A stretch of 64,000 nucleotides of DNA from Heliopora coerulea (Eukaryota > Cnidaria > Anthozoa > Scleralcyonacea > Helioporidae). The translations under genes and the position numbers were made by a program. Below, in pieces: positions 2,125 to 32,100 of this stretch; the first letter of the stretch is position 1, and each line of letters starts with the position of its first letter. The notes under the pieces are model-generated. The model did not search any database, was not told where the DNA came from, and worked only from the letters and a program-made list of their open reading frames with translations. The DNA lies in assembly GCA_030142905.1 (NCBI GenBank), contig JASJOG010000062.1:1661878-1725877 (forward strand), in the 5' to 3' direction.

Positions 2125-5100
2125 GTAAGTTCAAGTTTTTACAACTGTACATTTAATTTTTATTGAATTCGTGTTTCAGGGTTGCGTTCATTTGTAAGTA
2201 ATTCGTTAGTCTAAACTGAATGAGGGGTTTTCGATATTTGATTTTTTTGTTGTGTTTGCTTTAGGTACGAATTAGTGGTAATTAGAATTGAATTAGTCAT
2301 TAGAAGTTCGCGGTTTGTATCTGTATAAAAACCTAGGTTTTTATACTGACAATAACCACGAACTTCTAATGACTAATTCAATTCTATTCATCAACGCCGC
2401 TTTTCCCTGGAGAAATATATACAGGGTGTCCCAAAAAAACCCGAAAACTACAGGGTGTCCCAAAGAACCCGAAAACTATTGAAATCACCAATAACAATTT
2501 AACTGTTAGAATTTGAATGCCTTAGCAATCTGTTGGTCCCCACGAGTGCATAAATGATTGATATAAGTAATTTTATACATAATGAAGCTGTCTACAACAG
2601 TAAAATGTTGTTAGTACGCAGCGTTTATTTATGTGAGTTTTATGGTGCGTAAACACAATGGAATCAGATTGTATTCATGATCAACATATGCTTATTGTGC
2701 TGTTTCAGGCTTTTAGGAAGGAAAAGTATGTGCATTAAAACAAAACAGTTTTTATTTACAATATTTACAATTTACAACTATGGATACAATCAAGCACCGT
2801 GACCTTCGACATGTCCCCCTTCTCTTGCAACACAAAGTATTGTTCGCCTGTGCATATCACTCACTGCCCGTCGAAAGTAGGCAGGCTGCTCTCGTAAGGC
2901 ATCGAACTCTCTGACGATCCTCAGGCGTAACTCGTTAATATTTTGCGGTGGAGTTGCAAATACTTTATCTTTAACATATCCCCACAAAAAAAAAGTTGCG
3001 TGGTGTCAAGTCAGGTTAGCGCGGTGGCCATTCAACATCATGACCTAAACCTATGATGCGGTGATTTCCAAACACATCGTTGAGGCGATCTCTAACAGCG
3101 ATAAGGCGATGTGCAGGAGCGCCATCTTGAGCCCACCAAAAATCTCGAAACCTTCCCTCCCAATATTGGTTATTAAAATGTTCAGCGAGTTGTGGAAAGA
3201 CAAATTCGTTGAGCATTCGAAGATAGGCGATTACGTTAACATTCCCCACGAAAAAGTAAGGACCAAGCATTAAACCATTACCGCAAAGTGCTGCCCAAAC
3301 CGTCAAATGTACGCGAGAATCGCTCCTTTCAAAGTTAAATGCAGGCGGGTGTCCTTTAGGTGCATATTGCCGTACATTTTGCGTATTGACTTCGCCGTTC
3401 ATCACAAACGATGCTTCGTCTCCAATCACCAAGCTATCCAAAAAGTTTTCCCGACGACAGCCTTCGTTGAACCATCTGGAGAAGTGCAATCGACGTGAAA
3501 AGTCGCCTGCCAACAACTCATGCCGCACATGCATTCGGTATGGGTGCCATTTAATTTCAATCTTTGTTATCCGGTTAAAGCTTGTTCTGAAAATCGGAAT
3601 GGGGTTGCGTCGAGCACTCACGTGAGGATTTTGCTGGAACAGATCTCTTACAGCGTCAATATTTTGCGCAGTTCGAATAGTTCTTCTTCTGCCAGAATGC
3701 CCTTATTAATGTTTAAACTCGTACCTGCGTTTAAATACTTTCTGACGTTGCTCAAAATTGTGCTTGGCGAAAGGTGGATTTCGATCTGGAAACCTTTGTT
3801 GAAAAGCGTTTCGCACTTCCGTTGTACTTTGGGTACGCGTATAATTTATCACAATAAAAACTCTTTGTTCTGTGGCCAGTTGTACCATTTTCTTTCGAAG
3901 CGATGACAGGACTAATTTGAATTTTGTCATTTTCACCAAGTTTTTCTCTGTTAGAATTTTATAATTTGCTTTAAATTCCCACAGGCAAAAAATCGTGCAC
4001 TTTACAAGGTGATTTTCTTACTTAAATTTTAATACATGCACCTTGTCAATATTTTACGCATCATTACGTTCAGCTTTTTCGTAGGGCATTCAAATTTTAA
4101 CAATAAGTGATATCAATAGTTTTCGTTTTTTTTGGGACACCCTGTAGAATAAATTGGATTTACTAAAACATTTAGATTATTCACTCTCAATTCCCTTGAG
4201 ATGATAGTTTACTTGCTTTGCCCTCGTAACACATTATATAAATTGGAGACTATATTGAGCATAAGGATAGTTTCCCGTAGACGGTAAAAACTACAGAAAT
4301 TGAAAGTTACATTCTGATTGTTTAAACTTTCACCGTTGCGATAAGACTTCTCTTATTTTACTTTTGTACGATCGATATTGTGTGAGAAAATAAACGGCTA
4401 GGAAAAAACTTAAATAAGAGCGCTTTTCTAAAACTCTTTCGTTCATTTTCCTTTGTAAGTGACTACTTTTGCCAATATATCTGCAACATCCTGCAATTTT
4501 ACATTCTACAATTATATAAAATTTTGCCAAATTATTAAAGTTCTTGAAAGAGACAACCTGGTATTAGACCTCGTTAATTAAATATATTCTCTTAATTATT
4601 GATTTTTCAGAAATAAGAAGTCAACCGCCAATAACAACCTTGACCATAGCAAGCTTGAGACGTCTTCACCAACGTGTTTAGCTCCATTTCTACAGCAGTG
4701 GAGTTGGCACTGTAAGATGTTTTTAGTCTTTCTTGAAAGGCTCTTTGAAAAATGTGCTTCGTTCATATCAAAGCGACCTTTCTTTGTAATTTTCTTGGCA
4801 ATTCTTCTCGCAATTGTCTTCACGTCTGGATTTATTCAACTCAACGTTGAAAAGGAAGTTAAATATTTGTTTTTGCCTGAAAACAGTCAGGCATCACGGG
4901 ACATAAACAAAGTAAAATCATTCGGTTTTGATCTAGAAGTCAGACAAGAGGAAGTCATCATCCTACCAAAAGAAAATAAAACTGTTCTCTCACAGGAGTG
5001 CTTAGCAGAAATGATTGATGTACACAAACGAATTGTCCAAATCGAAGGCTATGAAAAATATTGCTATCGCCCAAAATCGATCGGTAAATGTGTATCCACA

Positions 5101-8100
5101 AATTTGTTAGAACTCTTCGAATACAGTAAAACTAGACTTTACAACATTTCGGGCCGAATTGAGGCTGTGTTTCGCAACGATTCTTTTATTATGTCAAATG
5201 GTAGGCGATTAAAAGACAATTTTAACTTAATCTTCGGAAAAAGAGCATCAAACAGTTCATTGTATGCAACGAATGCATTACGGATGGTTTACGTTATGAC
5301 AGAGCAATCCAACCAGAAGGAAAGAGACAAAATATTGAATTGGGAGAGTAAGTTCATCGAGATAATGTCGGAGTTTTCCAAAAACACCACCTGCGCAAAT
5401 ATTGTGTATTCCGCTGAAAGAAGTCTAGATGATTCTGTATCGGAAAGTACTGGGTCTGATATAAGATTTTTTGCCGTGACGTTTACAATTATGGGTGTAT
5501 TCAGTTCAATTGTTAATGGAAGATGTGCAGATCCTCTCTACGGTCACCAGTTGTTGGGTTTTTGTGCTCTGCTAGCTATCTATTTAGGGGTAACAAGTGC
5601 CTTCGGTTTATTAATGTACATTGGAATTCCTTTTGTTAACATGGTCGGTGTACTACCGTTTTTAGTCGTTAGTATCGGTATAGATGATGTGTTTATCATC
5701 CTTCACGAATTAAATGAAATTATTCGTGATAACATTCCTGCTGTTCACATTTTGAGTGGTTCTATGGCGAGAAGTGGCCCGACCATTACCATGACAACCT
5801 TAACAGATCTGGTAGCATTTGCAGTTAGCTGTCGTTCGGTCTTCCCCGCTGTTCGATTCTTTTGCGCTTATGCTGCCTTAGCCATTACGTTTGCGTTCCT
5901 CGTGCTGGTAACATTCTTCGTGGCCTGTATTTGGTTTGATATGAAGAGAATAAACTCAAAGCGTCGGGATTTCCTTCCTTGTTTTATTACCAGTCCTTCT
6001 TCCGAGACAAGTTGTTGCACAGGGATTCGAAGAAATGCTTTAGATAATGTGATGAAAGGCTGGGGTAGGATTTTGACAACTACATCAGGGAAAACAGTAG
6101 TTTTTCTTCTATCCATGGTGCTCTTGGCCGGTGGAATGTATGGTGCTTTTCATGTGGATGAAAGTTTCAGTCGGCAGTTACTAACTAGCGAAGACTCTTA
6201 TTATAGAACGTTTCTTGACGTTTATGAACGACATTTTCACTTGGATATAGAGGTGAATCTGGTTATCCCAGGAAATGTAGACTATAGTAGCCGTGAAATT
6301 CAGCAGAGATATTTAGATCTCCAATCTATTGCAACATCCAATGAGTATTTTACACCAAAGACCCTATCTTGGTTGTCAGAATTTCTAACGTGGGCTAAAG
6401 TCAACAACTTTCAGTTAAACAGTACCGAGACCTTTTATGAAAAACTCCAGTATTTTCTGTCATTACCGCATTACAGAACATTTGCTCAAGATGTTAAATT
6501 TACTGAAAATAGGACTCACATAACAGCTTCAAGGATCCTGGTCTTTTCTAAGAGCAACCCCAGCTCGAATTTTCAAAGGAACATGATGATCAGCCTACGT
6601 GAAGATCTATCTCGTTACTCCAATCTCGATGCGGTTGCAGTCGCACTGCCGTTCATTTATTTCGAACAATACGTTCAAGTTTCCGACGAGACCATAAGAA
6701 ATCTTATCATTGCTGGAATTTCAATTCTTGTAATATCATCGCTCTTCTTAATCCATCCAATGATAATTCTGTGTTTGTTGTGCGGTTTTATCACCATTAT
6801 TGTGGAATTGCTTGGTCTTATGTACGTATGGGACGTCTCTATCAATTCCATTTCGATGATCAACCTTGTAATGGCTTTGGGCTTCTCTGTAGATTACAAT
6901 GCCCATGTTGCTTATCATTTTGTTACCTCCAAGGCCAGATCTCCCGAACTCCGCATTGTGGATGCGCTAAGCACCATTGGTGGCAGTGTCCTACTTGGAG
7001 GACTAAGCACGTTTCTTGGAATGATGCCAACCGGTTTTGCATCTTCGATTGTTTTCCGAATATTTTTTAAGATGTTCATTGGAATAGTTGTGCTGGGTCT
7101 ATTACACGGTTTGGTTATACTACCTGTATACTTGTCTCTTTTAGGGAAAGTTTTTAATCTAGAAATATCACAAATCGAACAACCACTGAAGATATGGAAT
7201 AAGTCGATAAAGCGGGGTAGTACTCCTTCAGACGAGAAAAACAAAGAGAAAGTGCAGAAACCTAGTCTAACTAGAAAGTTTGCTCCAATAGCAGTTGTCG
7301 GCATAAGTTGTCGGTTTCCTTCTGGTGCTAATTCGAAGGATGAGTTTTGGAATATGTTGGTTGAAGGTAAATGTGGTATAAGTTCTTACCCAAAAGACAG
7401 ACCTGATGCAAGAGAGATGCTAGGTCCCTACAATCCAGGAAGAGGCACCCCGGGAAAACACTATGTTTTGACAGGAGCTTACCTGGATAAAGTATCAGGC
7501 TTTGATGCGCAGTTCTTTGGAATATCATCAGCTGAGAGTCGCTCGATGGATCCACAACAACGTTTACTTCTTCATGTTGTTTATGAGGCAATAGAAGATG
7601 CTGGTCTACGTTTAGAAGATTTGCAACAATGTCGAACTGGCGTTTATGTTGGTCTTATGAACTTAGATTACGGAGGCCTGCTTCTGGACGAGTCAAACGT
7701 TCGCAAAATTGACCAGTTTGCATCTACTGGGTGTACGTCCTCAGTTGCAGCAAACCGTATCTCTTTCTCCCTAAACCTCACAGGACCAAGCTTAACCGTA
7801 GATACTGCATGCTCCTCTTCCCTGACGGCGCTTCATCTTGCATTTGTACATATGCAAACAGGTGAATGTGACGTAGCAATTGTGTGTGCCCCGAACATTT
7901 TGCTATCCGGTAGAAAATTTCACACAGCTTGTTGTAAAACTGGACTGCTAGCTGAGGACGGTCGCTGTAAAAGTTTTGACTTAAGCGGGGACGGTTATGG
8001 AAGAGGTGAAGGAATCGCTGCTGTCGTACTAAAACCAACAATAATAGCCCTTCAAGACAGGGATGACACCTATGCTGAGATAGTAGCATGTGGTTTGAAC

Positions 8101-11100
8101 AACGATGGTCAAACTGCGATACCAATGACCTCACCTAGTGAAGAGACGCAAGCTCACCTTGCGAGGAGAGTGTTACTTGAATCGGGCCTTTCAAAAGACG
8201 ACATCCAGTATGTCGAGGCACATGGTACAGGCACTGCAATAGGGGATGTGGTAGAGATGGGATCCATTGCAAGTGTTTACGGCAACAGCAGCACACGAGT
8301 ACTTCGTGTAGGCTCGGTAAAATCAAATATCAACCATACTGAATCGACAGCTGGACTAGCGGGGCTGATAAAAACCTGTTTTATGATCAAATATGAGTAT
8401 TTCGTGCCGACCATTAATGTCCATAACATCAAACCACAACTAAAGATGTCCGAAAGGAAGATGATGGTTCAAGTACAGTATGAACCATGGAAATCAGAGA
8501 GTGGCAAACCAAGGACAGCTGCAGTTTGTTCCTATGGTTACGGAGGTTCCAATGCTCATGTGATACTCCAAGAAGTATCACAAACGCCAGTACCGTTGAT
8601 TCCAAGTCGTAGCTATGTAAACAGGATCATGACCTTATCAGCTCGTTCCAGTGAAGCTCTCAAAGCGATGGCACAGAAGTTCTCCCAAAGTCTTGAGATG
8701 AAACCAGATGATGATGAACTTCTCAAAGATAACATATGCTATTCCTTGAATGAAAGGTATACAGTGCATTCACAGCGCTTAGCGGTTAGTTTTCGTTCGT
8801 TGAAACAGGCTGCAAGGGCGTTGAGTATGTTTGCTGAACAGGAGAAAGGATGGCAGGAATTCGTTGCGGTCGGTGATGCAACTGTACCCCTTAACAAAGT
8901 GGTGTTTCTATATGGTGGTCAAGGAAGTCAGTGGTATGGCATGGCAAAAGAAATGATGATGTATGAACCAACGTTTAAGGAAAGCATAGAAAGGATAGAT
9001 AAAATACTTAGACGCAAGGGAATTAGCTGGTCCTTAACAGAAGAGTTTAGCAGATCGGAGGAGACCTCTAGAATGAACGAAAATCCAATTGGACAGACAG
9101 CTCTGTTCGCGGTTCATTTTGCGTTGACCAATTTGTTGAAATCCTGGGGAGTTACACCATCGGCTGTTATTGGCCATAGTCTAGGTGAAATCTCGGCGGC
9201 ATGTGCGTCGGGAGCATTGAGTCTAACTGAAGCACTGCACTTGGTTTTAATTCGATCTCAACTGCACGAAAATTGTTCACCAGTTGGACGTATGGCAGCA
9301 ATTGGCATGTCACCACAGGATGCTAGTGATATATTGCACAATGTACAGCTTGAAAATCACGTAGATATAGCTGTCATTAATAGTCCAACAGACGTCGTTT
9401 TATCTGGTGATAAAGAATCTATGCAACTGATTGAGAGGCACGTTCATGACCAATTCAGTAGTGTGTTTTGGAGAACTCTTGGCACTACACGATCATTTCA
9501 CAGTCGTCAAATGGAAGAAATCAGCCAGGCTTTTATGGACGAGACGAGAAAAATAAAGCTTCGTCCATGTCAAGGAAATGTTCCGTTTTACTCAACGGTA
9601 ACTGGCACCCAAATATCGGGAAAACAACTTTCCAGGGATCACTGGTGGAGAAACATACGTGAAACTGTTCTTTTGTCTTCTGCATTGCAAAGTATGTTTA
9701 ACGATGGTTATCGTGCTTTTATAGAAATTAACGCAGGTCCTCAACACTCCCGACACGTTCACCAAATTTGGTCGCAGTTCAAGAAAGCAAGGACTGAAAA
9801 CGTAAATGATGTGGTCGTAATCAAAACACTACCCAAACGCTCTGCAAAGGAACAGCACAAGTCCTTTCTGCAAAATTGTGTCGCTAGTCTCTTCACCCGA
9901 GGGTTTCCACTTTCGTGGAATAGAATTCAAGGATCGGGATCCAGATCTTTCATTAGGCGTCCGACTTATCCCTGGCAAGAAAACGAGTTCTGGTATCGTG
10001 ACAGCCATCACGTTGAGCTGGTCACTCCCCTTGACGAAAAGATGGAAGAAGGAGAAAGGGCAATGTTATTGACTGGTAGCCATCCTCTTCTGGGAAAACA
10101 TGTTTCGACGAAGGTGTTTTCGGGTTTACATGCATGGGAATCTGAGGTAGATTTATATGGTCTTCCTTATCTAAATGATCACAAATTTGAAGAGTGTCCC
10201 GATCCGGTAATGCCCGCTGCTGTTTATGTTGAAATGGTTTTCGCTTTGGCACTTCATATGTTTCCGAGAGCGGTGCCAAATGTGCATAATGTCATGTTTA
10301 ACAACTTGCTGACAATATCCAGCAATGATTGTCACAAGTTTCGCACTCGCTTGCACACCTGTCAAACTTCAACTGAAGGAAGTTATTATCAGATAACGAA
10401 AGTGGAAGATGACGAGAATGAAGTGGTTCTGTCAGAAGGTTCTGTTCGGTTGGATATCGCCGAAGAAAATCAAGGTAAAATAAAACAATTTCATTAGTTT
10501 TAATTCAAACGTTTATTCTAATGGCTCATCTTTTAAAGCGGTTTTAATGATCCTCTGGACAGCGTTTGTTCTTATTTTTTAAACAAAGTGATCATAATTT
10601 TGTTCCGGGGATAACCCGAATAAATAACACCGCTGGCATTGTTGCATGCAATTTACGCCAGATCTCAAGATCCATGAGCATTTAAAAAAACAAATCTTGA
10701 ATTTTCGGACAGAAATGAGGATTAGGGCCCCGAGTTTTAAAAATGAAGCCTCATGCTCCACTTCTTCCTCATATTTCCGCCCTACAGCATTAGAAGTTCA
10801 TATGTAAGCTTGGTTTCTTACAATCGACTGTCAATTCCAAATATTTGTTGAATATTTGATTATTTCACTCCAGGGAATATCAGATTATTTTACTCTGGCT
10901 AACGCAGGATGCTTTTTATCGTCAAGGGGACACATCTTACCAAGGAGTGGGACAAGAAAATATTTATCCTTAAACCAAGAGTCAATAATTTTCTATTTTC
11001 TTGACATTTAGATGAGCCAACGACAGTGGATCATGATAATTTCGACGCCATTAAAGTCCGGATGGTCCAACGACCGCCAGAATATCTTATTAAGAAGCGT

Positions 11101-14100
11101 GAAAAGATGGGCTTTCGTTTTGGGCCCCAATTTAGTCTGATCACACAGACGTGGTCCAGTGACAACGAAGCACTTGCTACCATCCATCCTACGGACGAAA
11201 TCGTCAGTACGTCATCAGATTATGTCATACACCCTTGCATCATTGATGCCTGTTTTCAGAGTCTTTTCTTAGTCAAGCAGCCCCAGGGTAAATTTGTGCC
11301 ATATCAGATTGGCGATGTGACGATCTTGCGTAAAGATTTAAGTCGTCCTTTATTCAGCCACGTTAGGACCGTTCACTCCGGAGAGGAAACACGCTTCAAC
11401 ATCACTCTCATGGACTGCTATGGTAGAGGAGTCATGCTGCTGAATGGATTTCTCGGCATTAATCTTTCAATGTTAAAACCCAGAGCAAATTTCAAAGATG
11501 TTGCATTCAAGATGGCCTGGAACGATGAGTACTTGACGATCGATACGCCACAAGAATCAGCAGAGCGCAAAACATGGCTCATCTTACGAGACCGGCTTGG
11601 CTTTGCTCAAATGTTTTTTGAACATCTTCCGGGGAATGAGACAGCAACGTTCATCGACATCCAAGACACAGCCGAGGAACTCCGTGCCTTGTTTTCGCAA
11701 TCTCTGAATAAAACTCTAAGCAAACGAAACACACAAGAAAAGAATGACAAGCTTGTGGTAATCAACTTTTGGCCGGTAGATGCCAGCCTACTTAAAGCTG
11801 ATTCTCAGAATTTTATGCCATCGCATTTTCTTACATTTGAAAGTTCACTTATTTTGGTGCAAGAGATCCTAAAAAAAGAAGATCTCGCCAAAGAAATTCA
11901 GCTAGTCTTTGTCACATCAGGAATAGTTTCAATAACTGGCCGACCTAATGTAGATTATTGTGCTACCGAAGAAAGCGAACCAGTATTTCCTTGGTCAAGT
12001 TCGATTTTTGGATTTAGAAGAACTCTTTCAGAAGAGGTAAACGCACCAAAGGCTTCTGTAATCGACCTACCAGAGAACCCAAGTGCAAATGATTTTCAGC
12101 AGATGGTAGCAGACATTGGACAAGAGGTAGTTAATGAAGAAATTGCCTATCGGAATGGTTTGCGTTACGTTAACCAGTTGACGAGGTTAGAAGCTAGCAA
12201 GATGAAACTTACCAAAGAAGAACCACCTGTCAACAAATCGGGAGATCCGAAAGCTTTCAAAGTGTCGTTCATCTCGAATAAAATCTTTTTAAGAGAAATG
12301 AACGGATTAAATCGTGGAGGAGAAAGTCCTGTGCTCGAAGTATTCTTTGCTCGTCCTGTCTTGAAGAGATATTGGACTAGCTTGAACATGTCCGACAATG
12401 TTACTGTAGTTGGGAAACTGCGGAACAAGTCAGACAATTACGAGGGTGAAAATCTTATGGTTGGTGTTTGTGAAGCTCGAAATCTTGGAAGCTATGTCGC
12501 TGCTGAGGAGTGCTCCTGTTTGACTAAAGTTAACCATGAAATCACTGCCCAACAGGCAGCTTCGCTGGCTTTTCCGATGGCTATTTCTTACCACCTCATC
12601 AAAGACATCCTCATCGCGGTCGAGGGAAAGAAGATTCTGGTGTATCACGAGGAAGAGGAAATTTGTTGTATCTTTGCATTCATCGCAATTTCTTTAGGGG
12701 CATCTGTTGTCGGTTTGACTAAAGACTGGCGAGGTAAAGATCAACTAAAACGATATGGAATTCCCTTGGTTCTTACAGAAGAAGAATTGTTAATCGGTGA
12801 CGAATTGAACGATACGATTTTGGACGTCGTTTACTTCTTAAAAAATCCCCGTGGAACCATTCTCCAACAGGTTATGAAACACTTGAAGCCGGGAGGCCAA
12901 GTAATTGCCGTTTCTGAGAAAAAGAGCAACAAACTCAATGTTAGTAACGAGAAAGATTTCAGCTTCATGAAGACAAGTTTGGCTGACGTTATCAAGAATT
13001 CCAAAAGATTTTCAAGTTTGTTGGACGCTTGTATGTCTGTCCTTGCTTCAACCGAGTTCTTGCAGAAGCTTCTGAAAATGCCTCAGGTATCGACCAGTAT
13101 ATTTGATGTCATTAGATCAGACAACGCTTCCATGGTTACGAGATTTGAGTCTGAAAGGCAGACGGAACTTCGTTTTCACACTGTGTCCTTCAAGCCAAAA
13201 TATGCTCCAGAGAAAGTAGAATTCCTGAGATTGGCTCTTGATTCAAACGGTCTTAGACGAGATCGAACTTATTTGGTCATCGGTGGCATACGAGGATTTG
13301 GGTTTAAAGTAGCAAGGTGGATGGTGGAGAATGGCGCCAAGACGGTCATGTGTACTGCACGCTCGCCTCCAAGCGACGAGAAGAAATCCGAGGCGCAACA
13401 TTTGGAAATGGAAACTGGATGCCGGATCCTTTTCCGTCAAGCGGATGTTACCTCCTGGAAGGACATGACTGTCGTTAAACAAGAATTAAAGGGTTTACCC
13501 GACGTTGCTGGCATTGTATTCAGTGCAATGGTTTTAGATGATCAAATGATTAAAGACGCAGATTTTGAGACTTGTGAACGAGTAGTGTCAACGAAAGTCT
13601 TAGGTAAGTCATTTCTGTTTCCGAGTAGTCCATGTCAGCATACCCTTGGACATCTTTCTATAAAAACGTACTTATCCACTTGTATGTGACCCAGTGATTT
13701 TGTACTGTTCAAAATACGTTTCTTGTGACCATGACGATCTTGAAATTCATGTGCGTGTTCTTGAGTTTCTTTTGTAGCTGAACGTGAGCGTTCACTTCCT
13801 GTGTACATTATTAAAAAGGGCGTGTTAAAATATAAAAACGGAGACAGTGATCTCGACCTTTTAGTCCAATCTTTAATGTGCATAAAGACGTGTCACAAAA
13901 CCTCAGAGATGTGTGTCGCAATCCCACCAGGGTGCGTTTCAACAATATGCCATGGCGTTCAAGAATAAAACACAACTCATGGCATTTGGTTGAAATACAC
14001 CTTGGTATTTTCTTATCTTGTTCAAAAATTTACATAATAACGTACTTTAAATACAGGACAAGAAATATATGTTAACGCCAGTTTGTAAGAGAGTACGTTA

Positions 14101-16434
14101 GTCTTAGCGTTTACTTTTTAATACTTGTTTGTAATAACGTGCACAGCATGCCTAATTAACAAATTATACAAAGTTGTAACAGTCAATCGACTATAAAAAA
14201 GTGAGAATTGATTTTTTTTCCTCGATGGTAACTGTTTACTTAGGAAGTGTCCTATTGCATCAGCTAAGTCTTTCAATGGATTTGGATTTCTTCATAATGT
14301 TCTCATCCATATCGGGAGTTCTTGGAAATGTCGGGCAAGTATCCTATGCAGCAGCTAACACTTTCCTAGATAGCCTCTGTGAATACCGGCTGTACAGGCT
14401 TGGTCTACCAGCGCTTTCAGTAAACTGGGGACCTATTAGTGACGCTGGGGTCCTTGAGAGAAACAAACACGTTGTAGCACTTCTTGAGGAACAAGGATTG
14501 AATTCTATATCACACAAAACAGGTACGAATATGAAAAACATGAACTTTTATTCTTCTTAATCTGCTGCAATTTTAAGCCTAAAATAGTCTCAAAATGCTT
14601 TAACTCTAGGGATGGAATTTCTTAAACGTTTCCTTCTTCAAAGTCCAAACGAAGCTCAGGTTTGCCTTTGCGACTTGAATTGGCCAGTCTACTTAAAAAA
14701 TCATGTTTCTCCAAGGTTCCAGTTAATTCGAGATAAGATTTCGTCGTTCAGTAAACGTCAAACTATCACAACGCTACAGGAATTGGGGCGTCAGCCGTTA
14801 GAACTTCGAATAAACTACGTTAAAGAGTTCGTTAGAAATTTACTGTCAACATGGTCAGGAGCAGACCCAGCTGAAGTTGACTTAAATGCCGGTCTTTACA
14901 AATATGGAATAGATTCAATTGGTGCAGCCAGCATGGGCATTCAAATAGAAAACGGTATCGGTGCTTCTTTTGAGGTAATGTACTAAAAATCTGCTTTAGC
15001 AATGTTTCTTTTTGTATCACTATAAAAATTGCTCCCTCAATCTCTTTTGCTATAAAGAGCTTATTAATGATTCATAGCAAAATTTCGATGGAAAATCATG
15101 CTGTATCTACTTATTTGGTAAGGATTCACCTGCTTTTTCCGTCAGAATTTTTAAACTCAGAAAAAAATAACTGTGAAAACTTTCTTCATCAACTAGCGTA
15201 TAAAGGGAATGATTATGGAAGTCATTTAAATCTTTTAGATCAATACTCGACTCTTTAATTCTACTTTGGCTGACGCCAGGTGAGTTTACTCAAAGGAGTT
15301 GTCTCGGATCGGAAAGGGGCAAAAACGCCTCCATTTACCAACTTCTTTTCGGTCGGTACTCAACTTTCAGGCCCATCGCCAGCGTTTTGTAGAAAGAGGT
15401 GCGCGGTAAGTTGGGTTCAGTAATGTGAGCGCCGAAAGCACAAGAAGCTCTGTTGGGTACAGGGGCACGCTTTTACGGAAAATTGTAAAATCTAGAGTCT
15501 CTGAAATGACATTCCCTACATTTTGGGGTATGATTTCCCATAATTTTGAAGATCGGAAAACGTCATTTATGCAAAACAGACTCCCCCCTCCTCGAACTCA
15601 TCTTGTTCATCAACAAAACATTACAAGAAATCTGACAAAGTTTCTTGCCACATTTTCTCGTATACTGATTTCAACTTCCCTATCCTTTATTCTTGATCTT
15701 ACTAAGTTTTGTTTTGGACCATTTCCAAGTATATTTTAATAGGCTGAATGGTAAGAATAAAGGGTATAAAATAATAAGTTGAAAAACTAAAAAATAACAT
15801 TTAATAAAAAATTTTCAACTTGAAGTCATCATCAATTATCAGCAATGATGATGACTTCAAGTCGAAAACGTTATGTATATATATATGTATATATATATAT
15901 ATATATATATGGGTAAAGTTCATCTTACTAAGTGCAGATGTTTGTAAGCTTGGATATATGTATGATGAAAAGTTTGTTCTCAAGCTTTTATCTCAGAAAA
16001 TTTCTGAGCTCCCCAACGGGAATCGAACCCGTGTCTCCCGATTGCCGGTACGGTTGTTTTACCACTAGACTATAGGGTCTCAGACGGCAAGCATGATGTT
16101 AATTAGAGACCTGGTTCGTAATATTGATATGCCTCTTTCGTACTTGAAAGCTGAACATACCTGTGATGTGATATTGTGTATGGGTAAAGTTCATCTTACT
16201 AAGTGCAGATGTTTGTAAGCTTGGATATATGTATGATGAAAAGTTTGTTCTCAAGCTTTTCTCTCAGCATATCAATATTACGAACCAGGTCTCTAATTAA
16301 CATCATGCTTGCCGTCTGAGACCCTATAGTCTAGTGGTAAAACAACCGTACCGGCAATCGGGAGACATGGGTTCGATTCCCGTTTGGGAGCTCAGAAATT
16401 TTCTGAGATAAAAGCTTGAGAACAAACTTTTCAT

Positions 16435-16489
<55 letters not shown>

Positions 16490-17741: not shown

Positions 17742-17780
<39 letters not shown>

Positions 17781-18386
17781 TAAATACAAAAGACAAAATT
17801 TTGCTGTCGCTACTCTGAGTTTCACGCGCTCAGGCGATCATCAGGCAACTGACAGATGAGATTTAATTATTCACATATATACAGGTGACAAAAGTTTAAA
17901 GGAAGTGTTTGGTTACATGTCGGCATTTGTTAAATAGTTCGGACCGTCTGTTCAAAATGTTTTTCCCTTGTCTCTTTAGTATAAGCAACTTTTCTTCGAG
18001 GCATAGGCGACATTTTCTTATATATATATATACATATAGATGTAGATGTAGCTGTTTGGTCTCTGAAGAGAAGAGTGCTCAATACAAAGGTGTAGAGCTT
18101 TGATAGTCTATTAAGTTATAGCTTTGAGCAACTGTCGTTACACCGTGTTTCACGCTTACGCGATCATCAGACGACTAATTACATTTAACTACGTAGTCCC
18201 TTTTATGCTCTTCGGGGCGCGGTGGCGTCATCCTTCAGGAATTAGAGGAATTTGGTGGCGTCATCCTTCAGGAATTGGGGGAATTTGTTAATTGTCCGGC
18301 GGTGTGTCTTTATAGTTGCGGAGGAGGAATTTGTTGATGTGACGGCAATTCGACAGCAGTTCGTTTCTATATATATATATATACGT

Positions 18387-18434
<48 letters not shown>

Positions 18435-20083: not shown

Positions 20084-20167
<84 letters not shown>

Positions 20168-23100
20168 TGTGAATGTTTTTAAACAGAGAACCTAACAAAA
20201 AAATCCCCAAACATGTTAAAAGGAATGAGACTGAAAAAATCTGCGTAGGTAAGCCGTGATAGACACTGATCGATTTATCTGGCGGCCATATTGGCTTTCT
20301 TCTTTTTTGCCACTTGATGATAGGAATTGGCTATTTGGCTTACCGTGAAATCAATCAGTCAAGACGTAAAATGCATTATGAACTTAAAATGCATGCATTA
20401 CACATGAACTTTACATTTTCTGCATGATCATTTTCCTTTCCTTATCTTCCTCCGTATTGAAACTAATCAAGGACTAGTGTAGTTCAAACATGAGTCAGTC
20501 GTGTCTGTTGCCACCTTCACTCCTATCTATAGAATCGGAGTTGATGCGTTCAATTCCAGTTCTTTTGCCATAAAGAAAATACACATCGTAAAACTGTAGA
20601 ATGAAAATCATTATGCTGTAATCCTACCTACCTATGGGTAATATTACTAATGTACGTTTTACTAGAGGCAGTCTAGTGCTGTAGTACTGTTTTGCTTGTG
20701 AAGACTGTTCTTGAATTCTTGAATGACTTTACCGATTCATTCATGTCATTTCTATTCACATTCAATATAGCTATAAAAATCTTATCGATGACATTTAAAG
20801 CTGAAGCCCAAAAAAGAGAACGGATCTAGCTGGGATCTATAGGGCCACGAAATTGCCTTGTGCCTAGGGCCCACGAATGTTCTAATCCGCTACTGATTAT
20901 ACCAGCCAGAGCTAGCGAAATAGAAATCGTTTATTCCTTTTTCGCAGAAAGAAGCTCCAGAAAGATTATACTTTAAACTTAGAATGTATGTAAGACTTGA
21001 TGTCTTGTTGCTGTCGTTAATTACTTTTTGTATTTGATGAGTCAGTGAAGAGAGACTTTATGCTTGCGTTTATTAAATTGATTCGTCTGTGCGACTCAAG
21101 TTTTTCCTGCTCACGTTTTAGTTAACTTTGATTTTTTGTAAATTATATCTGTCGGTACATTGCTAACATCTTGTCGGTACATTGGTCTAAAATCTCCCCT
21201 GCCCCCAACCCCCGCCATCTTCATATTCCTGGCCAAGCGACTGATAACAAGTAATCATAGTTTGTACAATATATAAATTTGTTATGATCAGTGAAAATTC
21301 CCCAACAAATTGTTAATTTTTCCCGGACGGGGGGCTGTAACCCCTCTGCTTCCATCTGGTGCCATCCCTGGTTTAACGATGTGTTTTGTTCTGTTCAAAA
21401 AAAATATTTGATTGTTATAAACTATTTGTACATTTTTCAAAAAAAAAAAAATTCATTGAGCGATTTTTTGTCGTTTGTATTTTTGTGTGTATGGTAAAGC
21501 ATTCTGGAAACTAGTGGCTTTACGCGTGATAAAGTTTCATTCTTTTTCTCGTCACAGAATCTCATAATTTTCAACATAATCGAGGCTTTGTAGTACTCAA
21601 AAATGTTTTATGTCACTATGATTAAGGCCTGAAACGGGTATTCAATATTAGATTCCAGTTGACGGGATGTAACTATATTCCGCAAATGTGAAAAAGATAA
21701 CCTACTTTAGGGTAACCACTAAAATGGTTTTTTAATATATATACCATGGAGCTAAACTGACACGAATTTACCTCCTTGTTCCTCTTTATGCTATTTTATA
21801 AGACGTACTACTTCATCCAACCAAAGACTACTGGTCTTACAATAATCAAAGACATACTGGATCAGATTGAAAATAGCAAGGAACCTTACGAAGACAATTC
21901 AACAGATAATGGAAGAACCAGTTTTCCACTTGAGCATGGTGTCACATCGTTTAATCGCGACGAGCAAGATCTTCAAAGTGAAGAGCTTCAAGCAATTCAG
22001 ATTAAAGAAAAAATAGTTCCACTCTATGTTCCGGATGAGGCAGACGTGAAAGTATTTATGGTACATAGCAGCCACAAATCTGCCCTGGCAAACGCTCCAT
22101 TTGCATTAGGCTTTCAACAGCAAGTAAGATATTTAATGTGGTACTCGAGGTTTTAATAAGACCTAGGTTATTGAACATGAATATAAACATTAGGGGGCCA
22201 CCCCGATGTAACATAAACCAGTTTGACCTGAACCAGATTTGAATTTTGTAGGGTTCCTGCCCTACTATTGGAAACATCAACGGTTAAATATCGATGAATA
22301 CAAAACTGTGCCACATTGAAAATCATCAGATGAACACACCTATGTCAAGTGCTTTTACACAAAATTAACATTTTTAGTATAATTGGAAATATAAAGGAAA
22401 TTATTGCAGAATGCCAAAGAATTCATTGATGCGAGGCCAAATCAAAACTTTGAATGCTAAAGGACATATTTTTAAATAAGGTTTTCTGCGAAAGACCTCG
22501 AAATGAAGGGGGATGGGGTAGTAAAAGCATTTGAACTGAAAAAAGGATTGATTAGAGAGCGATTTGCTGGTCGTTTATGTTTAGGTCTAGGGTTCGGGTT
22601 ATAGATATGAGTGACGTATGTTTTGAAGTATTTGCTTATCAATCGATTCGTTCTCAGTCTCCCCTCGAAAATGTATTTTAAGGTATACTTTCTAGCAATC
22701 ACCAAATCAAAATACATATTGATCAAAGGTTGTCATAGCTACTAGGTAGCCAACCTTCGGTAAAACAGCCAATTTTTGTGATGAACTTGTCATTCTTCTA
22801 GGACGTCTGCCTTAAACGATTGACAAACAAAATCACCTGCTGTAGACCAAAGTAAATTGAAAAAGTGCCAAAATTAGGGTTACTCCATATAAAGGCTGAG
22901 ATAGAATGAACGATTAAATAATAACCCTTTCCCGCAGGCCATCTAGAAAGTCTCCTCTTGACAAGTAAAATCGTCTAAAGTTGCAAATCGGCAACTATAC
23001 ACCAGGTTAAGGGTAAAATACCTAATTCCATGAAAGCTATTTGAGAATACAGCAAATTGCAACTTTGGTTTGGAAAAATTTAATTTCAGCTCCAGTGCTT

Positions 23101-26100
23101 ACAACATATACAATGTTGTTAGTCTAGTGCTTGACAGGACAATCATCCTAACATAATATGGAAATTTTCGACCCAAATCACTCTGTAAGTAGAGTATTTC
23201 CGTAAGTAGCACGTGAACGATAAAATTGTAAGGCTATGTCCGTGTAATAGGGTTTGCTTAGCCTTTAATGCCCTAATAAATTTTAATAAGTTAACTTAAG
23301 AAAGCTCATTTAATTAGATTAGTGGATAAAGCTGTTTTAAGAAAACCTTGTCTTTAAATAATCAGAATGAAGTATCCAACCTACTCTTGTAGAACAAATA
23401 TTACGTATTCATTTGTACTCATTGTATAACAACTAATTGAATTGATAAAATGACGACTAGCCTCTCGAAAAAAGAGAATTTTATAGAAAAATTATATTTA
23501 CTAACCATTAGGAGATAAAATTAATAAACGTTTCGGTTAAATACATACATTACAATTTTTCTAAATACAAATTGATAAAATAATTAATGCAAAAAAAAAT
23601 CAACGGAATTTTCCCTGGTTTTCAATACAATAGTTATTATTGTTTAATAGAGGTTTGATATAATTTGAAAGTTGTTTGAATCAAAACTCAAAGGCGCCTT
23701 AAAGGCGTCAAAATCCTCGATATACTGAATATTTTTGGAATCCGTACATTTTAAGGCACTTATCTGGAGAAAATGACCAAACAAATTTCAAATTTTTATT
23801 CAATGGTGATCAGAGGTTGTTTGAGTTTGACGATATCCAGGTTAAGAAAAAATAATCTTGTAAAACCACCTTGATCTAAATAACTATTATGTTTCCATAC
23901 TTAACTTACCAATTTTTAAAAGTTCATTCAGCAGTTACGTTCATAATTATGTCGACAAATAAATTTTACTTCCCTTTAAAAGCTGGAATGTTCGAGTAAA
24001 AATCTTACTAATTTCCTCAACTTTGTATTTCAGACCCTTGTTGCACTGTATAGCATTGGATTGGATGAGTCAACATACCAGACAAGTGACTATGGCACAG
24101 TCCAAGTTCTTGGAAAGCGATACCTCAAATTGATTCTAAAAGAGCAGTCAAGGGGTCCATACTACATTGGTATGATAATTACGCTGTATTTACATTCAAT
24201 ATCCTAACACTTATTCGTATTTTGTGAGTGTGGTTGGTTGTAATGTACCATGTGAAATCAGGCATGTTATGTCATGGAAATGCTGAGTCGTGCTTTAATT
24301 ATTGGGCAGCTATTAAATTGTGGCTATCCATCTTAGGTTGTGTTTGTGATAATATTATTTCAGGGTATTGTTTAATAAGTTAAAGGGAAGCATGAATACC
24401 TAAAAAGTTGTCAACTTCATTTGAAATTTAAACTTTCCTCACAACTGTTAACTTTATGCAATATGCTCAAACTGAATGATAAAAGACTTATCAGACTCGC
24501 TGTTCCTGTATTGTCAGGATTTATATCCACTCGTTCACAAGCAAAGACCTCGAAATTGTAAGTTGTCGTAAACATATTGTACATTTTTAGGAGTGTATGA
24601 GGTTCAGCTCTTATGGGTCCATATTCTAGGTAGCGACGCGTCAGTTCGAAAGCTTTTGATCATTTTCAAAAATTCAGACTTAATTTTTAAAAAAATGAAG
24701 AAAATAAGGCAAAATCACAGCACAAAAGACTTACTACGAAAACTATGACTCCACATGGGATCTTTTTGCTTCTACATATGATTCAACTTTCTACGTACGA
24801 TAAAAATCTTTGCACTCTTTGAACACGGCGAAAATTGCTTTTGCCGTCGCGACTTTTACACTGAAATCTATGATATTTTTGGGGAGTAGCGTTCTCTGAA
24901 ATCATCATGGAAATGTTTTCATTTATGTTAAAAAAAGCCGCTGTTGGCTAACAAAACCTTACTTTTTTATGAAAAGTTCCACTCAATGGAATTCTTGCAA
25001 GTTTTCTCTCAGATGTTAATTGGTCAAATTGGCCATAATGACCTAGCAATTTGCTGCACCAATCACTGAGCGTGATTTCAAGATTTTGAGAACTAAACTG
25101 CACAAATGAAGAAGCAAATCAGTCGAAAAACAAAAAAGCAGATCGTTCTGGCATAAAAATCCTTCTAATCGACTATAAAAAAAATCCTTCTAATCGACTT
25201 CCGAGTCCCAACTACAATAAAAATATTTGCAATCTTGTTTGTATTGCCCAGTCACTGCTCCTTTCAGTTCCGCAATTGAAATATTTTTTATGCCTCACTC
25301 AGGTGACCGGTTTGACCTTACCTAGACCAAATGGATTGCGATGTCGATAATAGTGCTTTTGTCCAATTAGTAAAGGGTACTAAGAGACAGGATTCCACAG
25401 TCACATTAAGTTTGTGATGCTGTAAAATTCGAGCTTGCTATTTTCAGAATTGACCGTACCAAAGAAGGTGACTCGTACATTTAACCATAGTACTTAATAG
25501 TAACTTTAATAGTAACTTAATAGTAACCATAGTAACTTTGCACTTAATAAACGTTATATTCTTTAACTATCAATAGTATACCTATGTAGAATTTTCAATC
25601 AAACTATAAAGAATTTGGTAGTTAGAGGGTTATGTTGCTGAAATATGCAAAAACAGGGTTTCAAAAAGATTAAATTTGCAATAGTCCGTGCCTATTTAAT
25701 TCATAGTGACTGGTAAAACATTTCATCAGTTCGAAAATGTGCTAATTTAAGTTCGCAAGAACCCTTGCCTTTAAATGCACAGCCGTCACCATTTGCCACA
25801 CTCTCAGTTGAATTCGTCTGTTTGCAGTTTGTACTGTGCCCTACAGTGAATCCAGCTTCTATTTCATCGCGTACTGCAATGGAAACAACCTATTTTCTTG
25901 GAAAAACGCTTTTTAAAAATAGATAAACCCTAAACTCGAGTCACAAATCTGCTATATCTTCCTATTTCCTTTTTATTCTTTCAGCTGGCTTCTCATTTGG
26001 AGGAATGCTAGCCTACGAAATGGCAAGCCAACTAGTGGAACAAGACGAAGAAGTAGCAATGGTCTGGATGTTGGATACATATCCCTGGTTTCCAAAGTTC

Positions 26101-29100
26101 TTGCCCCATGCCAGACAATTTTCTTTAAGCAGATCGCATCTGTTTTTGCAAAATGCAGATGACATTCTGGTAATAGTTAAACCTAATCAGCAAAATTATG
26201 CCTTTAGTCTCGCAGAATTTGTGATCGTAAAAAGTTGGGTAAAAGTTGGGGTGCTCATTTTGGGAATGTCCCGACAAGCAGAAAAACAACTGGAAGTTAT
26301 GAATGTTTTCAAGATATTATTATAAGAGTCACTATAAGAAGTTCGGAAGCCCTATGTGCTATAGGCTTATAAACACTGTAGAGAATAACAAGCAATCCTT
26401 TGGGTTTTGAAATAACTTGTATATTAGTTACCCTTTGCATACTTGCCATAAGCCTTCAGATGAACAGTAGACCGAATACCCCCATCATTAAAGGACTATA
26501 AAATTTTGTATTAAAACAGGATATTATGTTCAATGATCAAAAAGATTTAATTCACGACCTTTCTGCCATCAGTCTGTGGCCTTCAACAGGTGGAAGATAA
26601 ACAGAAAAATATCACATACTAGCTGAATATATAGCATACATAGGTGAATGAAGGATAAAAATAGGACATTACAAAAAGCTAAAGCCGCCATTGTTTGTTG
26701 ACAAGAATAGAATATTAGCCAGGGAATGGTTTGGAATTGTTGTTGGCGTTGTCGGTGACGGCAGTATGTCAGGATTGTAGTGATTTCCTAAATCTGTAAT
26801 TTTTCTCTATCAATAACTCGTCCGTTCTTAAAGTCAATTTGGTGGTCAATCATGTTTCCATGCATGATTAGCAGTATTAGAACCTTGTATGTGGTTCTTC
26901 ATGTTTCTGATGTGTTCTTTTTTTCCAGTCTCAAAAAATCTTTTGATCACACTCAAGATTCTAACATTGGTAACTGTGCATGGAAACATGATTGACCACC
27001 AAATTGACTTTAAGAACGGACGATTCATTGGTATAGGAAACTACAGAATTAGGAAATCTTCGAATTCCTGGCATACTGCCATCGCCAATACCACCGACAA
27101 CAATTCCAAACCACTCCCGGGTAAATATTCTATTCTTGTCAACAAACAATGACGGCTTTAGCTCTTTGTAATTTTCTATTTTTATCCTTTATTCACCATG
27201 CATGTTATATATTCAGTTTCCATTCATCTTCCTCCAGCTGAACGCCACAGGCTAGTAGCCGAAAGCTTGTGAATTAAATATTTTTGGTCAATGAATGTAA
27301 TATCCTGTTTTAGTATGTCTTTGCCTGGCCACGTTTCATCCGTATTCCTTAACAAAATTTTAGTTTGATTTTATGTACAAAAGTGTTGTTTAACGGGAGA
27401 AAGTTATACATTGGCGGTCAAAAAGAATCGATCACACAGAAGCTAAAGATGATGATGCCATAAACATTGTAACAAATCTTATCATGACAAGTAATTACAC
27501 CGAAAACAAACAGAAAACAAATCTTAATATTTAGTGGCTCCTCCACGACCTTTGATCACTGCTTTACACCTTCGAGGCATACTATTTAGTAAAACAATTG
27601 GCTTATCTAATGGAAAGCCTTGCCATGCAGCTTTTACAGCACTCCAAAGTTCTGTGACATTGGTAGTGTTTTGCCCTTGCACCATTGTCTTAAGTTGGTC
27701 CCATAGATTCTCAATAGGGTTGAGATCGGGTGACTGTGCTGGTCATTCCATAAAAGTTATGCCCTCTTCCTTAAGCCATCCTTTGACAAGGCGGGAGGTG
27801 TGACAAGTTGCGTTTTCATACTGGAATATCCAACCATTTGGTATGGTCAGCATGTGCGTGGTTGGAATAAGCGAATTTTCTAGGAGATCATTGTATCGTT
27901 CTCCATTGAGCTTTCCATCTATCTTAGAAAGACAGCCAACACCTCTTGCATTGCTGCAGCCCCATACCATGATGCCACCACCTCCATGTTTGACAGTTGT
28001 CTGAATGCAGCTTTCCTATAGTTCTTCGCCAGCCATTCTTCTGACATACACACGCCCATCACTCCTATGAAGAAGAAACCTTGATTCATCGCTTGAGATA
28101 ACTTGGGACCACTGTTCAGCCGTCCAATCTTTGTGTGCTTGTGCAAACTGTAATCGAGACTTCTTATGGCGAGCAGTAAGCCTAGGCTTCTTTCTGGGCT
28201 TGCAGCTCTTTACACCAGCCTCTACAAGCCTTCTTTGGGTGGTGGAAACTGAGATATTGACACCATGTTCAATTAGCATCTCCGTTTTTATTTGCGGTGC
28301 AGTCTTGTAGCGGTTTGACTTGCTTTTCCTTACAATGAGCATGTCCTCTCTCTCAGATGTCTTTCGTTTCCGTCCAGGGATCTTGCTATCTTTCACACTA
28401 CTAGTGAGTCTCTTCTTCTTGAGGATTTCACTGACATTGTTTTGAGTACAACCCACACGAGCAGCAATTTCATGTTGTGTGTAGCCTTCTTCTGATAATG
28501 CCATTACTTTTCCTCAATCTTCTAAGCTGATTCTTCACTTTGGACCCATTATTCCATATCATCCAATTTGTGACAGGCCAACAACCCTTTCTTGTAAGAC
28601 TTGAAATTCATTTAGCGTATGCTATAAAATACTTTAAAAGCAGAATATCTCTACAAATATTATGGGACACATCTCAATCTATCCAAAACATTCATTACTA
28701 TAACCCTGAAGGCTGTTGGTGTACGATGTGCTTCTTGTCTGCCGATGTAAGCAGAAAGTAACATAAATCTTAACATAATCGATTCTTTTTGACTGCCAGT
28801 GTATCTTGATAGTTGTATCCTACTCTACCCCACTCCACTCCAATGCATTGCACTCCACTCAACTCCACTCCAATCCACTCGATTCCACTCCACTCCACTT
28901 CACTCCACTCTACTCTTCTCTACTCTACTCTACTCTACTCTATTCTTTTGAATTCGGTTCTAATCTGCTCTGCTCTGTTCTGCTTTGTTCTATCCTTTTC
29001 TATTCTATCCTATTCTATCCTATTCTATTCTATTCTATTCTATTCTATTTTACTTTATTTTATTTCTCTACTGTTGTCATCTGCTCTGCTCTGTTCTATC

Positions 29101-32100
29101 CCGTTCTGTTCTGCTCTGTTCTGTTCTGTTCTGTTCTATTCTATTTGATATCATCGAACAAAGATTCTACATATTTTGTCCCCTAATCTTCTCATTCTAC
29201 CATTGTCCCTGCTCCGTTTGTTTGCGTTATGGTATGCTTATGATTTTTGGACAACTTAGTGTTTTCTCTCGTTTATTTCATTTGCAGACAAAGCGCTTGC
29301 TTAAGCAACTAGCTTATGTTCGTCTCGGGTTGACATCAAAACAATTCGACGAATTGAGGGAACAATGTTCAACTGAGGAACAATTTATATCAACATTGGA
29401 TGAAAGAGCTGTTGACCAAGATGTGCCTCTCCATGTGCGAGAAGAAATCTCATCCCTCCAATATCAGCTTAAGGCTGCCATGACAGCTCATAACAGTTGG
29501 CAACCTCCTAAGGTATTTGTTTGTTTTTATTAACGAAAGGTTTGTTTTTAAGTTTGAGCTATAATTTTGGTTTTTACCAGGAAACAATGTCACTGCACCT
29601 ATAATTGAGCCTTGTGGTTCAATACGTGTTGCATTTTTTCTGTCCAACCCTTGACAAACAGTAAACATAATACTATCGTCACCTTTTGCAATCAGTTAAT
29701 TTTTTTTCAAACAAACCAAATTTTCCCTTATTTGAGTGTCTAACACTGCCCTTTTATCTGTTATACCCAACCCTTTTCAGTCATGATATCCCAATTCCTA
29801 TGGCCAAAGTACGTACCTTTCGTCTACCAATAGTTTTTAGGTATGGTGGGTAGTAATGTTATGGACAGGGCATCCTGGATAAGATCCAAATCCACAGTTC
29901 CGCTTCTGGTGCAAGTGCATCATGCAATAAATGATTTATGTATTTTTATTCCAGGGTAAATATCCTTGACCTACATGGGTCCGACATTCATCAACGCTTG
30001 TTCTCGTAAACACTAGGTTGCTCACGAGCATTGGTGCAGATTTGAGTTAAGAAGGAAGTTGGACAAGGGTGTTCCTGGTAGTAGGCCATAAAGAGGTCCG
30101 TCCGTTCTTTAGCATATGGAGCAAGTGGGCAATATTCGTTTTGCCACTTGCCTCCCCTTGACAACCCAATATCAATTATATGTTGAGATTTTTGTAACTC
30201 CTTTGTGTAGCATTTCCAGACGGCAGGAAGAATGATTAGATTGTTGAAGTGGTGACCTTCTGGTAGACCAACAAAAAATTGAGATGTATTGTCGCCTTTT
30301 ATTTTTCTTGCTTTCAAAACTTTGAGATGCAGGTTTAAGACAAATAGCATTCAGTGCCTAGCAAATTGTGCGAAATATCACCATACTGGTTAAAATTAAA
30401 AAACAAAGAAGGCCAGAAGAATTTAGAACATTTTTAAATGATTAACATTTTGTTGCTAAGTTTACCGACCAACTTCAATAGTTTTATTAATTTATATTCC
30501 GGGTTGCTATGCACCTTTTGCCGTTCATTGCCAGAAAATATACTATCATTAACGCTAACCTTAAACTCATTAACGCGAAAATGCATTCATTTTATTCAAT
30601 CCACATTCACTAGCGTGGATAAGCGAGCATTTGTATCAAAGGGCATTCTATGGCGCCAACACACGATCATTAACCCCATTCTACTATACATTTTGGACAA
30701 TAAAATTCAATTACACAAGATATTTCTCTTATGCCTAGTTTTCTGTGCACTTCGTTGGGTTTATAATGGTTTTCGGTTTATACATTTCTTTTCGTCTGTC
30801 CTCTTTGAACCACTTGTGTACATCCCTGCCTGTTTTTGCCGTTCCGATAATTTTCTTTTCGGTTGTAACTGCTCTGTTCTCTCCAAATGGCAAACCAACG
30901 GTCTTTACTTTCACGTCTTTTTCGGTTATCCCTCTTGTTACTATTGTATATATTTGTTGGTTTTCTTCGCTGTTGTTTAGTGGTGCGGTTGCGTTGTTGT
31001 TCTGGATTCTTTTTTTTCTGTTTTGTTCTCTTATTACGGCTTGTTCCATTTTATCTTGCCATTCTTTCTTCTTTATCCAGATATTATGAGAATTCTCCTG
31101 TTCACATGAACATCGTTCACGCCATATTTTTTTCAATCCGCTCTGCAGGACTTGGCAATTTCATATCTTCTTACTTTGCCGCAAATTGTTGCCTACAGTG
31201 TTATCCAGACCTCAATTTCGAAATATTTATAAGCGTAAGCCTTTTATTTTTTCAAAAGCTTAATCACTGGATTGTTGAACTTTTCAAGGATAAAATCTGG
31301 GGATGCTCAAAAAAATATTTAAAATTTTTAATAGCAGACTTTGAGATGGCTCATGAAGTTTTCTTTTTATGCTCTAATTGCCCTTTGAATATAACCAGCC
31401 AGTCCGCTTATACGCTTCTACAGGCCTCAAATTACGTCGTAGAAACTGAATCTGTACATCTTATTTGTTTTGTTTTTGATTTTACAGATACGCTATGAAG
31501 AAACGCTAACGTTTGTTCGATGTGAGGAAACTAAAATTATTCCCTTGTTTTGGGATGCACCTCAGACGTGGAAGTCGTTAACTGAGAAAATGGATCTTCT
31601 CTCGGTGCCAGGGAATCATTTTGGCCAGCAAGATGAAATAAGCGGTAAAATTTGTGGTTCTTTGATTATGACAACCGCAGCGATGAAATACCGGACGAAG
31701 TATTCGATGCTGAATCTTTCGGGTTTGAGAGCGAGAGGGAAAGAACGTCAAGTCGACTGGTTAAAGCAAGGAGTCGACATTTCAATGTATTCAAACGCAG
31801 GTGAGCAAAATTCAATAAACGCAAGGATTTATCAATAAGGTCATTTATACAAGAGAAAATAAACCGCAGACAAAATAAGCAGGAAACACTCGAGTAAGTG
31901 GTCCGCTGTGAAGTTTTTTGTAACCAAATTAAACCACAACTGCTTAACTTTGATATGATTGGTGGGCTGACTGCAAGTCAAAACGTTGAGCCAAAACTGA
32001 CGAGCATGGAAGCCTCTTTGGGCATTGGCTACAGCCTTCTACGCTGTCAGTTGCGTTGAAATGGCTGATAAGGGATCTGAAAATGACGTTCAAAAACGCT

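Follow-up and report, generated by a model that had tools for sequence, protein, structure and literature searches.

Described systems that pair a transporter with a polyketide synthase

In bacteria, polyketides are known to be exported by proteins of the resistance-nodulation-division (RND) family that are partners of polyketide synthases (PKSs). The mycobacterial transporter MmpL7 is complexed with PpsE, a PKS making its cargo (PMC1238737), and MmpL5 has the acyl carrier protein (ACP) AcpM bound in the cytoplasm (PMC11633376); here and below, statements about cited papers refer to the parts of their text that were available. In this study we describe a gene of the coral Heliopora coerulea in which a Patched-type RND transporter and a type I PKS share one reading frame. 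The gene lies within a stretch of 64,000 nucleotides, hereafter the window (positions 1,661,878 to 1,725,877 of contig JASJOG010000062.1, assembly GCA_030142905.1), and all coordinates below are those of the window. MmpL7 and PpsE show the kind of contact that we propose for this gene, but they are two separate bacterial proteins and the transporter belongs to the MmpL subfamily; MmpL5 and AcpM, whose type of complex also ranked among our structure matches, are likewise separate and involve no PKS.

An earlier note on this DNA, made from the sequence, had named the bacterial MmpL systems as the closest parallel. That place has to be shared with the alga Chromera velia, for which two 'ACR-B coupled' ketosynthases have already been reported, Cvel_8275.t1 (4,523 amino acids) and Cvel_22311.t1 (4,384 amino acids) (PMC7464705). 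Like the coral gene, they are described as a single PKS-like module behind an AcrB-like/sterol-sensing N-terminus, with a predicted location in the endoplasmic reticulum or microsome membrane. Unlike the coral gene, they are algal, longer, and called a distant clade in that paper; we liken them by description alone, and they are not among the best 120 listed matches of either of our homologue searches.

Within corals, three PKS genes of Acropora digitifera (aug_v2a.12941, 16843 and 16847) are listed as 'other-KS-AT-DH-KR-(ACP)-TE' (PMC4604110). This is the domain order of the fusion gene with an unnamed N-terminal region at the position of the transporter and, judged from that order, these genes may well be members of the same family. 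According to the same paper, Nematostella and Hydra yielded no PKS; it also connects the PKSs of animals with biomineralization and proposes a role for them in the nucleation of calcium carbonate. In the crown-of-thorns seastar, PKS1 and PTCHD3 fall into one 56-kb sweep interval (NW_019091419, 1,682,033-1,737,827; PMC12330192); they are possibly neighbours or a split fusion model, and we take this as a hint of partnership and no more. Two multi-domain PKS genes are mentioned for Palythoa as data not shown (PMC11413580), and a mussel PKS and a PTCHD3-like gene appear within one expression list (PMC12652611). The words 'patched' and 'transporter' do not occur in the available parts of PMC10764717 and PMC12833800, and those of PMC10484617 draw no PKS-transporter link. 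An animal RND-PKS fusion was not named in any paper among the matches listed from the open-licence literature, a search that most subscription papers lie outside. An RND-PKS fusion as such has a precedent in Chromera velia and possible listed coral members in Acropora.

Animal fatty acid synthases (FASs) and FAS-like PKSs such as EcPKS1 are also animal-encoded single-module megasynthases, presumably without a transporter. HMG-CoA reductase joins a sterol-sensing membrane domain, the regulatory sterol-sensing anchor of its enzyme, to a cytosolic lipid-making enzyme; it is not known to have a second RND repeat or a PKS. The closest unfused relatives of the coral transporter are anthozoan PTCHD3-like proteins of several named species (41-42% identical over 97%), which differ in having no PKS; in several of them, probable introns interrupt the open reading frame (ORF) of the RND region.

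An uninterrupted frame spans transporter and synthase

On the forward strand, 1,964 codons between 4603 and 10497 run without a stop and span a complete RND transporter of the Patched/NPC1 fold together with ketosynthase (KS), acyltransferase (AT) and dehydratase (DH) domains. The earlier note had proposed such a joining without stop, intron or frame change, and it is borne out, with the N-terminal part of the DH lying in exon 1. In the translation from the ATG at 4717, Pfam places the Patched sterol-sensing region and the Sterol-sensing domain at residues 256-423, ketoacyl synthase at 857-1235, acyltransferase at 1396-1709 and the dehydratase N-terminal domain at 1789-1883. The Patched and sterol-sensing matches score 95.8 and 111.5 bits against cut-offs of 23 and 22.3, respectively, and a structure model of the RND half shows the full RND fold of 12 transmembrane (TM) helices with two large luminal domains. 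Each of the two luminal loops contains glycosylation sequons. The acids of TM4 and TM10, which serve ion coupling in RND proteins, are kept in this gene (GIDD and GFSVD). We compared the window's gene with a second copy on another contig (C135) by the Nei-Gojobori method (own script, first ~1,791 residues); dN/dS is 0.345 in the RND half (18 synonymous and 22 nonsynonymous changes) and 0.237 in KS-AT-DH (32 and 27), and both halves look constrained, on few changes.

The later exons were set by homology to annotated octocoral guide proteins and by splice sites, and exons 2-11 are a prediction on that basis. The final model has 11 coding exons with GT-AG borders at 10/10 introns and encodes 3,496 residues (~394 kDa) in the predicted order RND-KS-AT-DH-degenerate enoylreductase (ER)-ketoreductase (KR)-ACP-thioesterase (TE)-tail (Table 1). 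The end of the gene had been put at 31800, which is the end of exon 9 only; exons 10 and 11 carry the model to a stop codon ending at 44601. Both fall in stretches that the C135 copy matches at 82-84%, with similarity collinear along the gene, in a comparison that covered part of that contig. Matches of the C-terminal tail to the pleckstrin homology domain are weak and below the Pfam cut-off. The true start codon may be in an upstream exon, since an acceptor-like site precedes the ATG in frame at 4609-4610 and several octocoral-type relatives extend upstream of the equivalent of this ATG.

In an alignment with ten other PKSs, the model retains Cys-His-His of the KS, Ser/His of the AT, His/Asp of the DH, the GGxxGFG motif and Ser/Tyr/Asn of the KR, Ser of the ACP and Ser/Asp/His of the TE, residues that we take to be catalytic. 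The expectation of ER-KR-ACP-TE in later exons therefore stands for KR, ACP and TE; the ER is degenerate. Its GGVG NADPH motif is absent in 5/5 octocoral-type rows of the alignment and altered in 2/2 hexacoral rows. A structure model of exon 2, of moderate quality (mean predicted local distance difference test 69.5, predicted template modelling score 0.41), resembles PKS modifying regions, among which mycocerosic acid synthase ranks first; it also matches single reductases of the medium-chain dehydrogenase/reductase (MDR) type at target TM-scores of ~0.6. An ER-like fold is thus present and is probably inactive. To judge from its sequence, the synthase lacks the active ER of a type I PKS with a full reducing set and, since the NADPH motif is gone, a partly reduced chain is the expected product. 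When structures in the PDB are ranked by sequence, KS-AT is nearer to bacterial modular PKSs (EryA, ~1e-146) than to FAS (5.6e-93) or EcPKS1 (1.9e-85).

Copies of the fusion in the Heliopora assembly

The Heliopora assembly itself (430 Mb, 769 contigs) was searched in six frames, an approach that readily overlooks domains divided among several exons. It holds at least 33 places with a Patched domain and at least six with a KS; these are lower bounds, and further PKS or FAS genes are possible. Each of the five KS domains recovered at near-full length is preceded on its strand by a Patched domain, in four cases within one frame. Besides the window, the five loci comprise the C135 copy, which is 97.4% identical to the window over 5,958 bp and is either a paralogue or a divergent haplotype, two nearly identical loci on C89 (1,818/1,826 residues) and one on C415 (L107, 131000-140999). 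The frame of the latter is broken at several places in the RND-KS-AT-DH region, and its protein is 82-88% identical over exon 1. The sixth KS place (C290) is a frame of 52 residues with two stops and does not match the gene model.

We reject bacterial contamination or recent transfer as a source. The gene has ten GT-AG introns, the best bacterial KS locus is only 43% identical among 80 retained from at least 590 confirmed GTDB loci, and at those 80 loci the window's RND half as a query finds no match; another RND query gave short, weak matches in two.

The fusion is a conserved anthozoan family

Two homologue searches (155 and 213 matches, the best 120 of each listed) were pooled into 187 proteins. 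Both the RND half and the KS are matched in 55 of these 187, among the matches listed (BLASTP, 1e-5), although several of the 55 may derive from one species; the two matches are 8-56 residues apart. Annotated models cross the junction in four named species: Dendronephthya gigantea (LOC114544389, helices 7-12 and the PKS), Paramuricea clavata (the last 115 RND residues and the PKS), Oculina patagonica (ACROYT_G021036, 3,570 amino acids) and Actinia tenebrosa (LOC116302983 isoform X2, 3,630 amino acids).

We call the main groups octocoral-type and hexacoral-type after their nearest named members. Identity over the query region is 61-69% for P0001-P0027, 54% for P0028 (the C89 gene, from Heliopora coerulea or a close species), 39-40% for P0032-34 and 27-30% for the hexacoral-type. 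KS identity is at least 54% in the fused groups versus at most 43% in the other KS matches of the pool. In a KS tree, which held no FAS or animal FAS-like PKS rows, the 26 rows of fused groups and paralogues form one clade (100/100) against 27 other rows. On these sequences, the RND-PKS fusion is a conserved anthozoan family that includes octocorals and hexacorals.

A proposed synthase with its own exporter, and the evidence against it

For the window's gene we consider the odds about even that it encodes a membrane-embedded synthase that passes its product to its own transporter, which would couple synthesis to export. This is favoured by a pump that is complete and looks constrained, and by the published RND-PKS and RND-ACP contacts of mycobacteria. 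The PKS half would lie on the cytosolic face, as the number of TM helices is even, adjoining malonyl-CoA and NADPH, and would act iteratively, as its single module suggests. Without a working ER, it would build a partly reduced acyl chain, probably unsaturated or hydroxylated, which the TE would release next to the transporter. The transporter could then use an ion gradient via its TM4 and TM10 acids and lift the chain to the outer leaflet or into the lumen. More broadly, and with a probability of about 0.35, we propose a one-polypeptide animal synthase-exporter in which the ACP and TE deliver into the tunnel of their own pump, which predates the split of octocorals and hexacorals, and whose pump later became an anchor in several lineages.

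The transporter is well kept in part of the family. The octocoral-type rows (n=29, window included) have Asp at the two TM4 positions in 25 and 28 rows and at TM10 in 28, with Glu in the remaining one, and all three acids are kept in 3/3 rows of the P0032-34 group. Other observations weigh against export as a general property of the family. In the hexacoral-type (n=20), the first TM4 acid is lost in 20/20 rows and the TM10 acid in 19/20 (Glu in one), while the second TM4 Asp is kept in 19/20. In the C89 fusions, neither TM4 acid remains and luminal domain 1 is for the most part missing, with the TM10 acid kept as Glu. Among the octocoral paralogue ORFs (P0056, P0057, P0059-P0064; 6/8 inspected), five have between two and five hydrophobic segments ahead of the KS and the other, P0062, is incomplete; upstream exons are possible for ORFs of this type. 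The KS residues are still present in the C89 copies and in both of the hexacoral proteins that were examined. Within the octocoral clade of the KS tree lie the C89-type row and the octocoral paralogues, with P0015, a row with an intact pump, adjoining them (95/88 and 90/80), a pattern that suggests that the pump was lost in steps. Given these losses, transport is, on the sequence evidence, dispensable for the persistence of the family, and membrane attachment is the property common to its members. The suggestion of coupled synthesis and translocation in the earlier note is therefore plausible for the window's gene but does not extend to the whole family.

The larger trees of the RND halves also weigh against a single origin. 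The RND half groups with unfused cnidarian PTCHD3-like proteins, apart from the PTCHD3 of other animals and from NPC1 (100; 100/100), but these first, quick trees scatter the fused halves and do not recover them as a single clade. The KS halves form one.

Alternative readings

The first alternative concerns how the fusion arose: in place of one ancient event, PTCHD3-like transporters may have been joined to one PKS lineage several times independently, or may have undergone gene conversion with their PTCHD3-like relatives. In approximately unbiased (AU) tests, one clade of all fused RND halves is rejected (p 0.003), as are clades of the octocoral-type with P0032-34 (p 1e-7) and of P0032-34 alone (p 7e-4). 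In addition, the fused P0048, P0052 and P0034 and the PTCHD3 proteins P0195/P0197, P0200 and P0246 are on equal-sized contigs (757537, 1441421 and 1682657), which suggests that fused and PTCHD3 genes are linked in the genome in three sets. However, a clade of octocoral and hexacoral fused halves is not rejected (p 0.095), and the rejection of a single fusion at p 0.003 depended on the hexacoral branch and on rows of unverified status: P0226, P0231, P0232, P0195 and P0200, first labelled unfused, are ORFs whose ends fall at probable splice sites, and the first three may be fused. When the unfused set consisted of ten complete verified proteins and the long hexacoral branch was left out, the test did not reject a single clade of the seven fused rows (p 0.152), although it is absent from the free tree. 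Taken with the single KS clade, this leaves multiple fusions as a tentative explanation. At ten inspected Patched-only loci of the Heliopora assembly, the match ends at the equivalent of residue 700 in five and 762 in three, unlike the fused RND region, which is a single exon; a processed PTCHD3-like copy inserted ahead of a PKS is a possible origin.

The main alternative to export is a regulatory role as a membrane anchor: like the membrane domain of HMG-CoA reductase, the RND half would hold the PKS at the endoplasmic reticulum and sense sterol or lipid but would not pump the product. The sterol-sensing Pfam match lies above its cut-off, there are weak matches to HMG-CoA reductase (8djk, 3.8e-4) and SCAP (1.1e-5), and the decay described above leaves the examined KS residues in place. 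This decay favours the anchor for the relatives concerned, and in the hexacoral-type and C89 proteins the pump part is probably a mere anchor or sensor. The window's gene, on the other hand, has the acids, both large luminal domains and the full 12-TM fold, which is beyond the needs of an anchor or sterol-sensing domain, and its RND half has a dN/dS of 0.35; here we regard a pure anchor as possible rather than probable.

It is improbable that the two halves act apart, with internal promoters, alternative transcripts or proteolysis freeing transporter and PKS from one gene. The Dendronephthya models P0058, which begins at the KS, and P0221, which ends within the RND region, would fit such a scheme, but both are possibly incomplete, and the junction-crossing annotations of four species and the 55 two-match proteins speak against it. 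An assembly or annotation artefact, for which the sole point is that the last position of the window is also that of its contig (C579, 1,725,877 bp), is rejected with near certainty, as four loci in the Heliopora assembly, and relatives known from other sources, have the junction unbroken.

Features of the gene and the window

Table 1. Predicted features of the RND-PKS fusion gene, in window coordinates.
Feature	Position	Strand	Basis
Acceptor-like site TTTTTCAG (AG 4609-4610) and in-frame sequence up to ATG 4717	4609..4716	+	sequence
Exon 1, 5,758 nt, one open frame: whole RND half, linker, KS, AT, first part of DH	4717..10474	+	
Patched/PTCHD3-type RND half, 12 TM, two luminal domains, residues 1-817; sterol-sensing domain 256-423	4717..7167	+	
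TM4 motif GIDDVF, acids D323, D324	5677..5694	+	
TM10 motif GFSVDY, acid D726	6880..6897	+	
RND-KS linker; low model confidence at ~residues 834-853	7168..7284	+	predicted structure
Ketosynthase, Cys/His/His active site present	7285..8541	+	
Acyltransferase, GHSLGE serine present	8902..9843	+	
Dehydratase N-terminal part, catalytic His	10081..10474	+	
Exon 2: C-terminal portion of DH with the catalytic Asp, a Rossmann-like region, the degenerate ER and the N-terminal portion of KR	11012..13603	+	
Pseudo-enoylreductase, MDR-like fold without GGVG NADPH motif	12256..13083	+	borders from model, approximate
Exon 3: KR catalytic Ser/Tyr/Asn	14244..14522	+	
Exon 4: end of KR region and ACP with GIDS serine	14610..14974	+	
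Exon 5: ACP end and linker toward TE	21803..22123	+	
Exon 6: TE	24034..24169	+	
Exon 7: TE, GFSFGG serine and Asp	25985..26169	+	
Exon 8: TE	29288..29512	+	
Exon 9: TE His and start of C-terminal tail	31488..31800	+	
Exon 10: C-terminal tail	41128..41238	+	spliced match to Dendronephthya protein; conserved in C135 copy; splice sites
Exon 11: end of C-terminal tail and stop codon	44396..44601	+	region conserved in C135 copy

The window also contains an inverted repeat at 34847-37889, with two 1,338-bp arms that are 100% complementary and 367 bp apart. It carries two GIY-YIG ORFs (34971-36203 on the reverse strand, 36164-37765 on the forward strand) and is either a young mobile element or an assembly hairpin. 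Interstitial telomere-like TTAGGG arrays at 46727-49009 lie within nested inverted repeats (45271-45847 / 49618-50194), and a tRNA-Ala gene (GGC) is found on the reverse strand at 34356-34429.

Implications for anthozoan biology

A natural animal fusion of this kind, if true, would allow a direct test of whether synthesis and export are coupled, and it would mark polyketides of corals that are encoded by the host. It would also offer a hint at the cargo of a PTCHD3-type protein, for which we know of none. If the product seeds calcium carbonate, as has been proposed for animal PKSs (PMC4604110), a built-in exporter would fit that role. As a counterpoint, Actinia also has the fusion. This anemone has no calcareous skeleton. 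Intact and decayed versions side by side in one genome amount to a natural experiment on the role of the transporter half.

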